This document shows positions 24,070 through 28,805 of a stretch of 64,000 bases of DNA, in pieces. The notes beneath the pieces were generated by a model. The model searched no databases. It worked only from the letters and a program-made list of their open reading frames with translations, and was not told the DNA's origin. Source of the stretch: Prochlorococcus marinus str. MIT 0918 (GTDB lineage Bacteria; Cyanobacteriota; Cyanobacteriia; PCC-6307; Cyanobiaceae); the NCBI RefSeq assembly GCF_027359415.1, contig NZ_CP114780.1:1386764-1450763 (forward strand), in the 5' to 3' direction. How positions within the stretch are numbered: the first letter of the stretch is position 1; every line of letters begins with the position of its first letter. The position numbers were made by a program, and so were the translations under genes.

Positions 24070-24819
24070 ATGACGGCAGCCACCAGTCAATCTAAGGAAA
24101 TTATTCTCGTGGCTGATGATGAAGCGAGTATCAGGAGAATCCTGGAAACTCGTTTATCAATGATCGGCTATCAAGTCATCACAGCTTGTAATGGGAATGA
24201 AGCCATCCAGCAATTTCACAATTGTGAACCTGATTTGGTTGTGCTAGATGTAATGATGCCAAAGTTAGATGGCTATGGCGTTATTCAAGAATTGCGTAAG
24301 GAATCTGATGTTCCGATTGTAATGCTTACTGCCTTGGGAGATGTTGCAGATAGGATTACAGGACTTGAATTAGGAGCGGATGATTATGTAGTAAAGCCAT
24401 TTAGCCCTAAGGAATTGGAAGCACGCATTCGTTGTGTTTTAAGACGTGTAGAAAAAGAGCAAATTGCAGGTTTACCTAATTCAGGTGTCATTCAGGTTGC
24501 TTCATTCCGAATTGATACCAATAGACGCAAGGTTTATCGAGGAGATGAACGTATCCGTTTGACTGGAATGGAATTCAGCTTGTTAGAGCTTCTTGTGAGC
24601 CGCTCTGGGGAGCCTTTTAGCCGAGGTGAAATCCTGAAAGAAGTTTGGGGATATACCCCAGAAAGGCATGTGGATACAAGGGTGGTGGATGTTCATATTT
24701 CTCGATTACGTTCTAAATTAGAAGATGATCCTGCAAACCCTGAATTAATCCTTACTGCTCGAGGTACAGGTTATTTGTTCCAACGGATTGTAGATCCTTT
24801 GTCTTCAGAACATATTTAA
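24070..24819 (+). CDS. rpaB: OmpR-type response regulator RpaB (Ycf27)
   Basis: 249 residues with receiver (D60 in LDVMMPKLDG, K109 in DYVVKPFSPKEL) and OmpR winged helix ([54 protein letters not shown]). VDTRVVDVHISRLRSKL and the C-terminal ARGTGYLFQRI match RpaB/Ycf27, an essential regulator which under NblS (Hik33) control binds HLR1 sites of high-light and photosystem genes. Only 5 nt separate its stop from plsX, so rpaB probably leads a long transcript into fatty-acid genes. Confidence 0.95.
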   Translation: MTAATSQSKEIILVADDEASIRRILETRLSMIGYQVITACNGNEAIQQFHNCEPDLVVLDVMMPKLDGYGVIQELRKESDVPIVMLTALGDVADRITGLELGADDYVVKPFSPKELEARIRCVLRRVEKEQIAGLPNSGVIQVASFRIDTNRRKVYRGDERIRLTGMEFSLLELLVSRSGEPFSRGEILKEVWGYTPERHVDTRVVDVHISRLRSKLEDDPANPELILTARGTGYLFQRIVDPLSSEHI

Positions 24820-24824
24820 AATCA

Positions 24825-26159
24825 GTGGAAAATGAGTTTCGCCCTAAAAGTAGTAGACCTAAAGCTATAAGAAGGTTAGTAATTTGGTATAGGAGGAATT
24901 CCGCTGTTACTACTCTTGTTGATACGGCGGCTAATTCGGCTTCGGCAGCAGGAAATGTTGCTGGATCAGTTGTTTCCAGTGCTGGATCAGTTGTTTCCAG
25001 TGCTGGATCAGTTGTTTCCAGTGCTGGATCAATGGCAAGAAGCACTTTGCAGCCTTTAGTTTTTGATCCTTTAAGAAGACTTCAAGGAGGAATAAATGAT
25101 TTAGATAAGACTGTTCAACCAAATTCTGAAAGACTATGGATAGCTGTTGATGGAATGGGTGGTGATTATGCTCCAGGGAGCATATTAGATGGATGCCTTC
25201 AAGCGATAGATCGTCTTCCTTTGCGAATAAAATTTGTAGGTGAATCTGAGAAGATTTTCCAGTCAGCTAAAGAACTTGGTCTGACTGATGTATTAAATGA
25301 GTGTCTTGCCGAAGGAAGGATAGAGCTAATTCCAAGTGGCCCTTCTGTAGGAATGGACGAAGAAGCCACAGTTGTGAGACGTAAACGTGATGCAAGTATC
25401 AATCTTGCTATGGATTTAGTTAAGAATGGTGAAGCAATGGCTGTTTACTCTGCAGGCAATTCAGGGGCAATGATGGCTTCTGCCATTTTCAGACTTGGCA
25501 GATTAACTGGCATAGATAGACCAGCAATAGGCGCTTTATTTCCAACTAAGGATCCAAGTCAACCCGTTTTAGTTTTAGATGTAGGAGCAAATATGGATTG
25601 CAAACCTACTTACTTGCATCAATTTGCCTTGCTAGGAAATATTTATTCTCGAGATGTTTTGCAAGTAAATCATCCAAGAATAGGTTTGTTGAATATTGGA
25701 GAGGAAGAATGTAAAGGAAATGATCTTTCACTGCGTGCATATGAATTATTAAGTCACGAAGAACGTTTGAAATTTAAGGGGAATTGTGAGGGGAGAGACG
25801 TGTTGTCAGGTGAATTTGATGTTGTTGTATGTGATGGATTTACTGGCAATGTTTTACTTAAATTTCTTGAATCAGTAGGAAGTGTTTTACTTGATGTCTT
25901 ACGAGCAGAATTGCCAAGGGGTCGACGTGGCAAAGTTGGCTCTGCTTTTCTTAGAAGTAATCTCAAAAGAATTAAAAAACGCTTGGATCATGCTGAACAT
26001 GGCGGAGCACTTTTGTTAGGAGTTAATGGAATTTGTGTCATTGGTCATGGGAGTAGCAAGGCTTTATCAGTTGTCAGTGCTTTAAGAATTGCTCATTCTG
26101 CTGCAAACCATGGTGTTATGGATGATTTGGTAGAACTTCAAAAACCAATAGCGCATTAA
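24825..26159 (+). CDS. plsX: Phosphate acyltransferase PlsX with an N-terminal extension
   Basis: Converts acyl-ACP to acyl-phosphate, starting phospholipid and glycolipid synthesis. The PlsX core starts at about residue 103 (RLWIAVDGMGGDYAPGSILDG) and includes EATVVRRKRDASI, VYSAGNSGAMMASAI, VLDVGANMDC and GFTGNVLLKFLESVG. The first 100 residues are extra: a basic RRLVIWYRRN stretch, then Ala/Ser/Gly/Val-rich sequence with three copies of GSVVSSA. GTG start 5 nt after rpaB. The ATG at 25032 would remove the repeats but leave a 33-residue lead. Followed by fabH, fabD and plsC in the same direction. Confidence 0.93.
   Translation: MENEFRPKSSRPKAIRRLVIWYRRNSAVTTLVDTAANSASAAGNVAGSVVSSAGSVVSSAGSVVSSAGSMARSTLQPLVFDPLRRLQGGINDLDKTVQPNSERLWIAVDGMGGDYAPGSILDGCLQAIDRLPLRIKFVGESEKIFQSAKELGLTDVLNECLAEGRIELIPSGPSVGMDEEATVVRRKRDASINLAMDLVKNGEAMAVYSAGNSGAMMASAIFRLGRLTGIDRPAIGALFPTKDPSQPVLVLDVGANMDCKPTYLHQFALLGNIYSRDVLQVNHPRIGLLNIGEEECKGNDLSLRAYELLSHEERLKFKGNCEGRDVLSGEFDVVVCDGFTGNVLLKFLESVGSVLLDVLRAELPRGRRGKVGSAFLRSNLKRIKKRLDHAEHGGALLLGVNGICVIGHGSSKALSVVSALRIAHSAANHGVMDDLVELQKPIAH
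24960..25031 (+). repeat. Three exact 21-bp tandem repeats plus a partial fourth inside plsX
   Basis: GCTGGATCAGTTGTTTCCAG followed by T occurs at 24960-24980, 24981-25001 and 25002-25022 with no mismatch; the first nine bases appear again at 25023-25031. The 21-nt unit keeps the frame and encodes a seven-residue Gly-Ser-Val-Val-Ser-Ser-Ala unit. Exact identity, including third positions, points to recent duplication. Confidence 0.97.
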
Positions 26160-28166: not shown

Positions 28167-28805
28167 TTGAATTTAGACCCTCCAAAGCCTAGTTTTGCTT
28201 ATCTAGTTGTTAGTTATTGTTTTGTTTTTCCTATTTTTAGGCTTTTGTTTCGAGGGCGCATTACGGGGACGAATAATGTGCCGAAAAATGGCTCGTTAGT
28301 TGTAGTGGCAAATCATGGGTCTCATTTAGATCCTCCTTTTTTAGGACATGCTTTGGGACGTCCGGTTGCATTTATGGCCAAGGCAGAATTATTTAAGATC
28401 CCTTTGCTTGCAGCTATTATTAGAGCATGTGGGGCGTATCCAGTAAATAGAGGTGCTAGTGATAGACATGCTATTAGAGTTGCATCTTCAAAATTGAATC
28501 AAGGATGGGCTACAGGATTGTTTTTAGATGGCACTCGTCAGAAGAATGGCAGGGTAAATAACCCTATGGCAGGAGCAGCATTGCTGGCTGCAAGAACTGA
28601 GTCGAATTTGTTGCCAGTTGCAATTATCAATAGTCACAAAGCGCTTAGAAAGGGATTTTTGTTTCCACGATTTTTACCAATTCATTTAAGAGTTGGTGAG
28701 GTAATACCACCTCCTATTAGTAGAAGAAAACCTGATTTAGAAGAAGTAACTGAAAAATTAAAATCATCAATTAATTTTATGATTGATCAAGGGCTTATAG
28801 ATTAA
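28167..28805 (+). CDS. plsC: 1-acyl-sn-glycerol-3-phosphate acyltransferase
   Basis: Adds the second acyl chain to lysophosphatidate. 212 residues with a hydrophobic N-terminal region (about 9-27) and the acyltransferase motifs: NHGSHLDPPFLG (HX4D, block I), VNRGASDRHA (block II), FLDGTRQKNG (block III, in which the usual EGTR is DGTR) and LLPVAII (block IV). The E-to-D change is conservative. TTG start right behind fabD, thus ending the rpaB-plsX-fabH-fabD-plsC series. Confidence 0.92.
   Translation: MNLDPPKPSFAYLVVSYCFVFPIFRLLFRGRITGTNNVPKNGSLVVVANHGSHLDPPFLGHALGRPVAFMAKAELFKIPLLAAIIRACGAYPVNRGASDRHAIRVASSKLNQGWATGLFLDGTRQKNGRVNNPMAGAALLAARTESNLLPVAIINSHKALRKGFLFPRFLPIHLRVGEVIPPPISRRKPDLEEVTEKLKSSINFMIDQGLID

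Follow-up and report, generated by a model that had tools for sequence, protein, structure and literature searches.

The PlsX protein encoded in the window, i.e., the whole stretch of 64,000 nucleotides analysed here (positions 1,386,764-1,450,763 of a one-contig genome of 1,789,313 bases), carries an N-terminal lead whose length differs between relatives mostly in amounts that keep its two conserved ends, or caps, in one rotational register. PlsX makes acyl-phosphate, at the start of membrane phospholipid synthesis, and picocyanobacteria of this kind are among the most abundant phototrophs on Earth. Because lengths differ almost only by register-keeping amounts, a long uncharged helix lying on a membrane is probable. 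The reading that we favour, at somewhat better than even confidence, is that the lead is one continuous, weakly hydrophobic and nearly uncharged amphipathic helix between the two caps, predicted to hold or to sense the membrane.

The plsX gene (24825..26159, forward strand) is an open frame of 444 amino acids with a GTG start, assigned to the long form of the enzyme by NF010419 (859.8 bits, cut-off 729). Its catalytic region (residues 103-444, 25131..26156, forward strand) is delimited by Pfam, NCBIfam and alignment to solved chains, and matches TIGR00182 (358.3 bits, cut-off 243.4) and PF02504 (340.4 bits, cut-off 29.1). A first, sequence-only reading of this DNA had placed the start of the core near residue 103, which agrees with the Pfam FA_synthesis domain beginning at residue 106 and with solved PlsX chains aligning from residues 103-106; the lead is thus about 102 residues long. 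NF010419 spans residues 2-441, and since residues 1-104 alone match it at E 8e-38, the lead is part of a long PlsX form that was already modelled. This long form is known as a sequence model (NF010419 / PRK13845, putative PlsX, long form) that covers the lead; its description is silent on helix, phase and lead function, and the helix-phased length design is not described there.

The segments of the lead, all on the forward strand, follow one another as an N-terminal cap, a helix segment, a C-terminal cap and a linker. The N-terminal cap AIRRLVIWYRRN (residues 14-25, 24864..24899) is basic and aromatic and nearly invariant. The amphipathic helix segment (residues 26-74, 24900..25046) sets an Ala/Val face against a Ser/Asn/Thr/Gly face and varies in length between species. 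It is closed by the C-terminal cap LQPLVFDPLRRLQ (residues 75-87, 25047..25085), which follows the pattern LxPLVFDPLRRLQ, and a variable linker (residues 88-102, 25086..25130), in which length changes are mostly of 1-2 residues, connects it to the core and serves as an internal control. Over 300 of 586 eligible pairs, which are non-independent, pN/pS is 0.013 in the N cap, 0.099 in the repeat segment, 0.019 in the C cap, 0.419 in the linker and 0.073 in the core. Both caps are therefore more constrained than the enzyme itself, and these substitution ratios argue that the lead is translated and selected as protein.

The helix segment contains an exact 21-bp tandem array of AGSVVSS units (24959..25031, forward strand; period 21, 3.5 copies, 100% matches), delimited by Tandem Repeats Finder and by direct reading, whose score of 146 is the highest of the 24 Tandem Repeats Finder rows for the 64-kb window. 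Direct reading recovers the three exact 21-nt units reported earlier at 24960-25022, the fourth being exact for 9 nt and then divergent. The accompanying suggestion that the number of units might vary finds its counterpart between species: the window has an anchor distance (WY motif to the L of LxP) of 55 residues and the relatives fetched from its genus have 48, 41 or 37, their leads being 7, 14 or 18 residues shorter between fixed ends. Exact DNA tandems, with matches running over at least 0.9 of the period and at least 15 nt, occur in 25 of 184 leads, with a period of 12 in 17, 21 in seven and 33 in one, and the longest of them is that of the window gene. Because the relatives within the genus are shorter and exact tandems are present in few leads, the array appears to be a recent, local case of general helix growth, and is most likely the recent product of repeat slippage adding heptads to the helix. 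The longest lead (anchor distance 99; L010:3001-4440 and L158) has three copies of the 11-residue unit NVAESVVSSAG, which puts a Glu on an otherwise nearly uncharged helix.

Both anchors are present in 174 of the 201 distinct PlsX proteins (nine have the motif without the end pattern and 18 are without the motif), and the WY-to-LxP distance takes 19 values among them: 30, 34, 37, 41, 45, 48, 49, 52, 55, 56, 59, 62, 63, 66, 70, 77, 81, 85 and 99. A common period of 3.63 residues describes them best (R 0.81, the period being fitted on these same lengths); 3.6 gives 0.786, and 3.667, the 11/3 period of the lipid-binding 3-11 helices of synuclein, perilipin and apolipoprotein, gives a score close to it, 0.762. 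All 19 distinct lengths lie within 0.8 residue of the 3.63-residue ladder, a tolerance that permits 44% of lengths and at whose edge 49 and 62 stand (0.76). No random length set among 5000 reaches an R of 0.81, and neither does any of 5000 sets built by summing 4s and 7s; strings of 4s and 7s drawn at random reach it in 0 to 0.12% of cases, depending on the mix. The end anchor was moved after the data had been seen, from DPL (170 sequences) to PLRRLQ (175) and then to LxP (174), since a single clade lacks one residue between LxP and DPL; under the DPL anchor, six of 170 sequences (lengths 42 and 53) fall off the ladder for this reason. A set of 57 loci fetched afterwards left 29 leads once 28 duplicating known ones were dropped, and all 29 fall on the ladder at 0.8 residue; they come from relatives and take only five lengths, all seen before, so that a binomial value for them is an overstatement.

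The same regularity is found when length changes are placed on a tree. Parsimony on one tree of the catalytic part, with one resolution rule, gives 61 changes in lead length, of 4 (16 changes), 7 (15), 11 (7), 3 (5) and other residue numbers (18), and 19 changes in linker length, of 1 (13), 2 (4), 4 and 5 residues. At a tolerance of 0.7 residue, 59 of the 61 lead changes are whole-turn changes versus one of the 19 in the adjacent linker (Fisher 1e-14), the two exceptions in the lead being changes of 1 and 8 residues. Of 78 disjoint close pairs, 32 differ in lead length, all of them turn-compatibly at 0.8 residue (a single difference, of 8 residues, fits at this tolerance only), and eight differ in linker length, two of them turn-compatibly. 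It had been proposed that the seven-residue repeat corresponds to two helical turns; at 3.63 residues per turn, a heptad makes 1.93 turns, close to two without being exactly so, and units of 4, 7 and 11 residues are all used. In the window, each heptad shifts the Ala by some 25 degrees (9, -15, -41) and the 4-residue step that follows returns it to -4, so that heptads and tetrads act together like a vernier about 3.63.

The residues themselves repeat with a matching period. Of 148 distinct helix segments, 143 have the peak of their hydrophobic periodicity at 95-105 degrees and the other five at 80-85 degrees; for the window lead it is at 101 degrees (shuffle p 0.0002). Counted by face across the 174 proteins, the inner, non-polar third is made of Ala (52%), Val (28%) and Leu (7%), and the outer third of Ser (40%), Asn (16%), Thr (16%), Gly (12%), Asp (5%) and Glu (2%), with Ala at 5% and Val at 1% in this polar third. 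The 148 segments hold one Pro in 7,260 residues and have a median charged fraction of 0.033; the median hydrophobic moment is 0.25, the median H 0.31, and the helix ranges from about 25 to 94 residues in the proteins measured. The earlier idea of an amphipathic helix is thus borne out by the residue periodicity together with the helix-phased length changes. AlphaFold2 gives the lead a pLDDT below 50 in a mediocre model of the full protein (mean 60), and the lead alone is modelled, at low confidence (mean pLDDT 57), as largely helical, with predicted helices at PlsX residues 13-48, 61-71 and 83-87 and a break inside the repeats. Both models were set aside for placing the lead, as being too unsure. 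Also discarded were two weak composition matches (E 0.8-0.9) from a search of solved structures with the lead alone, and the Pfam matches that the lead gave (to a bacterial collagen middle region and two other models, E 0.003-0.7), which fall under the curated cut-offs and reflect composition. A search for a second such helix in the genome of the window, made with the window lead as single query and blind to a helix of other sequence, returned only plsX itself.

The lead is a family-specific trait. In a phylum sample of 386 genomes, the NF010419 cut-off is passed by 59 of 59 genomes of the window's family and by none of the 327 others, of which 320 match the profile below the cut-off. When the family is sampled more densely, 133 of 151 genomes in one set and 274 of 330 in another lie above it. 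The other 18 in the sample of 151 are seven genomes of deep lineages, seven of the genus g142, two with partial matches and two without a match; in the sample of 330, 24 are without a match, and rows below the cut-off are known only among the matches listed. Among the 80 of 267 confirmed stretches that were used, the named relatives of the window PlsX are Prochlorococcus and Synechococcus records, with a few under family names. In one assembly that is 77% complete, a plsX match (G504:C15:11714-13015) holds one in-frame TAA, either a sequencing error or a broken gene.

Homologues without a conserved lead had been put forward as the finding that would speak against a functional lead. They do exist outside the family, where 13 loci (L159-L171) are without it and have nothing more than short, unrelated stretches ahead of the catalytic motif; inside the family, the WY motif is absent from five of 188 sequences and present without repeats in seven. 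These seven deep-lineage loci (L139-L145) have the cap R(R/K)LVIWY(R/H)R, and the end cap can be recognized in five, each with a distance of 19 residues, on the ladder and three turns under the shortest repeat-bearing lead. The five g142 loci (L146-L150) have a strongly basic lead, e.g., ARRRAIRRIRRIRRLSRQSR, without WY motif or repeats, possibly a degenerate or independently altered one.

How the lead relates to membrane association has to be judged against what other PlsX proteins do. Bacillus PlsX docks on the membrane by a peptide at the tip of its stem (PMC6702220), and Synechocystis PlsX is reported to be in the thylakoid membrane (PMC6878006). The Synechocystis protein is presumably lead-less, since none of the genomes outside the family reached the cut-off of the long form; that of Synechococcus elongatus likewise has a PlsX that matches NF010419 below the cut-off. 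It had been proposed that the lead sets PlsX, a peripheral enzyme, on the membrane: this would suit its amphipathic character, yet as a general cause of the peripheral state of PlsX the lead is unlikely, given the Synechocystis and Bacillus proteins. With all 13 outside proteins lead-less and Synechocystis PlsX reported at the membrane, the lead would not be the origin of binding but would make it stronger, redirect it or regulate it.

In the window, alignment to solved PlsX chains places the stem tip at ELPRGRRGKVGSA (residues 362-374, 25908..25946, forward strand; Arg367). The Bacillus subtilis tip peptide (253-261) is an amphipathic helix that places PlsX on the membrane (PMC6702220); it differs from the lead in being nine residues within the core fold rather than an N-terminal extension, and the window segment aligned to it is basic. 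At the position following ELPxG, Arg367 in the window, all 188 family sequences carry Arg, those of deep lineages and of g142 among them; of the 13 loci outside the family, five have Trp, five Leu and one each Met, Ile and Thr, a bulky hydrophobic residue in 12 of them. From this alignment, the lineage that acquired the lead apparently also exchanged the bulky tip residue for Arg, which weakly suggests that the membrane anchor was handed from the stem tip to the lead. The handover may be coincidence, as the exchange at the tip is a single event shared by one lineage; the Arg is found also in the deep members and in g142, both without repeats, and the stem tips are alike overall.

Altogether, these findings lead to a model in which the lead would fold on contact with the membrane and lie flat on it, the Ala/Val stripe turned inward. 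Two caps that have to point the same way on a flat surface leave length free but fix phase, which would give the observed length pattern. The caps could add stronger anchoring, and the two leads of a PlsX dimer could add avidity. The lead might in this way keep PlsX at the membranes where acyl-phosphate is handed on, or sense their packing.

Several membrane helices offer comparisons. The 11-mer helix of Plin4 (and of Plin1-3) is likewise long, repetitive and amphipathic, with few charges and almost no bulky aromatics, and its hydrophobic moment is 0.257 (PMC5889406) versus the median of 0.25 for the PlsX lead. However, 15% of its residues are charged (PMC5889406), against a median of 3.3% in the lead, and Plin4 is a eukaryotic lipid-droplet coat built of strict 33-mer repeats without insertions, whereas the lead mixes units of 4, 7 and 11 residues. 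For its stability, the Plin4 helix relies on its polar residues (PMC8064757). The ALPS motif of GMAP-210 has a polar face of small, uncharged residues, notably Ser, Thr and Gly, as does the lead, but also one bulky hydrophobic residue per turn, a rule from which the lead, with mostly Ala and Val, departs (PMC6164224). The likenesses to Plin4, alpha-synuclein and ALPS would be ones of chemistry and not of kinship.

Some observations weigh against a membrane helix. Its moment is weak, and a 66-residue piece of Plin4 with a similar moment is cytosolic (PMC5889406). The AlphaFold2 values given above, with the break inside the repeats, offer it little help. The presumed lead-less PlsX of Synechocystis is already reported in a membrane fraction (PMC6878006). 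Lastly, it is Ala and not a bulky residue that centres the non-polar face, which suits packing between helices as well.

This last point is the basis of the main rival, itself rather unlikely, in which the Ala stripes of the two leads of a dimer, or of one lead and a membrane partner (PlsY, PlsC), would pair as a zipper; phase would then matter and length could vary if the partners co-vary. The dominance of small residues in the inner third, where Ala alone makes up just over half, would suit such pairing, as would the dimeric state of PlsX in the Bacillus crystal structure (PMC6702220). Against it, the period of 3.5 residues expected of a canonical two-stranded, left-handed coiled coil scores R 0.41 versus 0.81 at 3.63, although hendecad pairing remains compatible.

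Returning to the membrane helix, a more specific version of it can be drawn from another enzyme of lipid synthesis. In CTP:phosphocholine cytidylyltransferase alpha (CCT), a helix that is C-terminal to the catalytic part senses lipid composition. By analogy, the PlsX lead might be a sensor of membrane state in early phospholipid synthesis of picocyanobacteria, which would fold only on a loosely packed, galactolipid-rich membrane and set the activity or location of PlsX, its strength being tuned between lineages by whole turns; we hold this to be a speculative possibility, of low probability. The cytidylyltransferase shares with PlsX a long amphipathic helix, of the 11-mer type, on a lipid-synthesis enzyme, and differs in being an unrelated enzyme whose helix is 49% charged (PMC5889406).

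An unfolded, low-complexity spacer grown by neutral repeat slippage, in which steps of 4, 7 and 11 residues would be unit sizes and nothing else, is improbable. The exact 12-, 21- or 33-bp tandems in 25 of the 184 leads and the pLDDT below 50 in the full model are what such a spacer would show. However, the ladder is not produced by random sums of 4 and 7, the polar third is nearly free of Ala and Val, the pN/pS of the repeats lies far under that of the linker, and the linker, for its part, changes length off whole turns.

A targeting or export signal, with a twin-arginine-like start and an Ala/Val/Ser stretch taking PlsX to the membrane or the lumen, is very improbable. The start of AIRRLVIWYRRN, with RR followed by hydrophobic and aromatic residues, has what we take to be a resemblance to the twin-arginine motif. 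Yet the stretch is amphipathic and weakly hydrophobic and can be as short as 25 or as long as 94 residues, the cap that follows it is under stronger constraint than the enzyme, and acyl-ACP, the substrate of PlsX, is cytoplasmic. Least credible of all is a nucleic-acid regulatory repeat near the rpaB-plsX junction in place of a protein feature. The array does begin 140 nt past the rpaB stop, but 159 of 184 leads are without an exact DNA tandem by the rule given above while the protein pattern persists, and pN/pS is low throughout the lead.

Titles and abstract openings of open-licence papers on cyanobacterial or Prochlorococcus PlsX, on PlsX and membrane and on N-terminal extension gave no account of the lead among the matches listed, and a literature search on indels with helical periodicity gave nothing pertinent among those listed; the excerpts of PMC6131169 and PMC5217662 concern matters other than the PlsX lead. 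The lead could show how these cells tie lipid synthesis to the membrane. With 19 lengths of one helix, all near phase, it amounts to a natural experiment, and the ladder makes the weight of length, moment or phase in a weak amphipathic helix directly testable.

Around plsX, NCBIfam profiles give the gene order ycf3, radA (reverse), rpaB, plsX, fabH and fabD, and a frame at 28167-28805, named acyltransferase-like by reading, is without an NCBIfam match at E 1e-30. The response regulator gene rpaB (24070..24819, forward strand; NF045944, 381.7 bits, cut-off 330) lies directly upstream of plsX, and the 5-nt gap noted before is as described, from the rpaB stop at 24819 to the GTG at 24825. Within about 1.4 kb of upstream DNA per locus, rpaB precedes plsX in 181 of the 184 loci that bear the motif and in all 20 family loci checked again (L139-L158). 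Outside the family it does so in one of 13 loci, L159, whose PlsX is lead-less and yet has rpaB directly upstream. Since rpaB is also found upstream of a lead-less plsX, the adjacency may predate the lead. The sequence-only reading saw in this arrangement a sign of light-linked control of lipid synthesis; adjacency is all that was found, and its presence in 181 of 184 loci says nothing on light. In Synechococcus elongatus, plsX is reported to be up in high light, in an excerpt that contains no rpaB link (PMC6091082). The nearest candidate plsX start lies from -26 to +19 nt of the rpaB stop in the 181 loci and is TTG in 95, ATG in 47 and GTG in 39; the commonest position is a 20-nt overlap with rpaB (84 loci), followed by an abutting start (35). 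On the opposite strand, a 97-amino-acid antisense frame (24752-25045) spans the 21-bp array.
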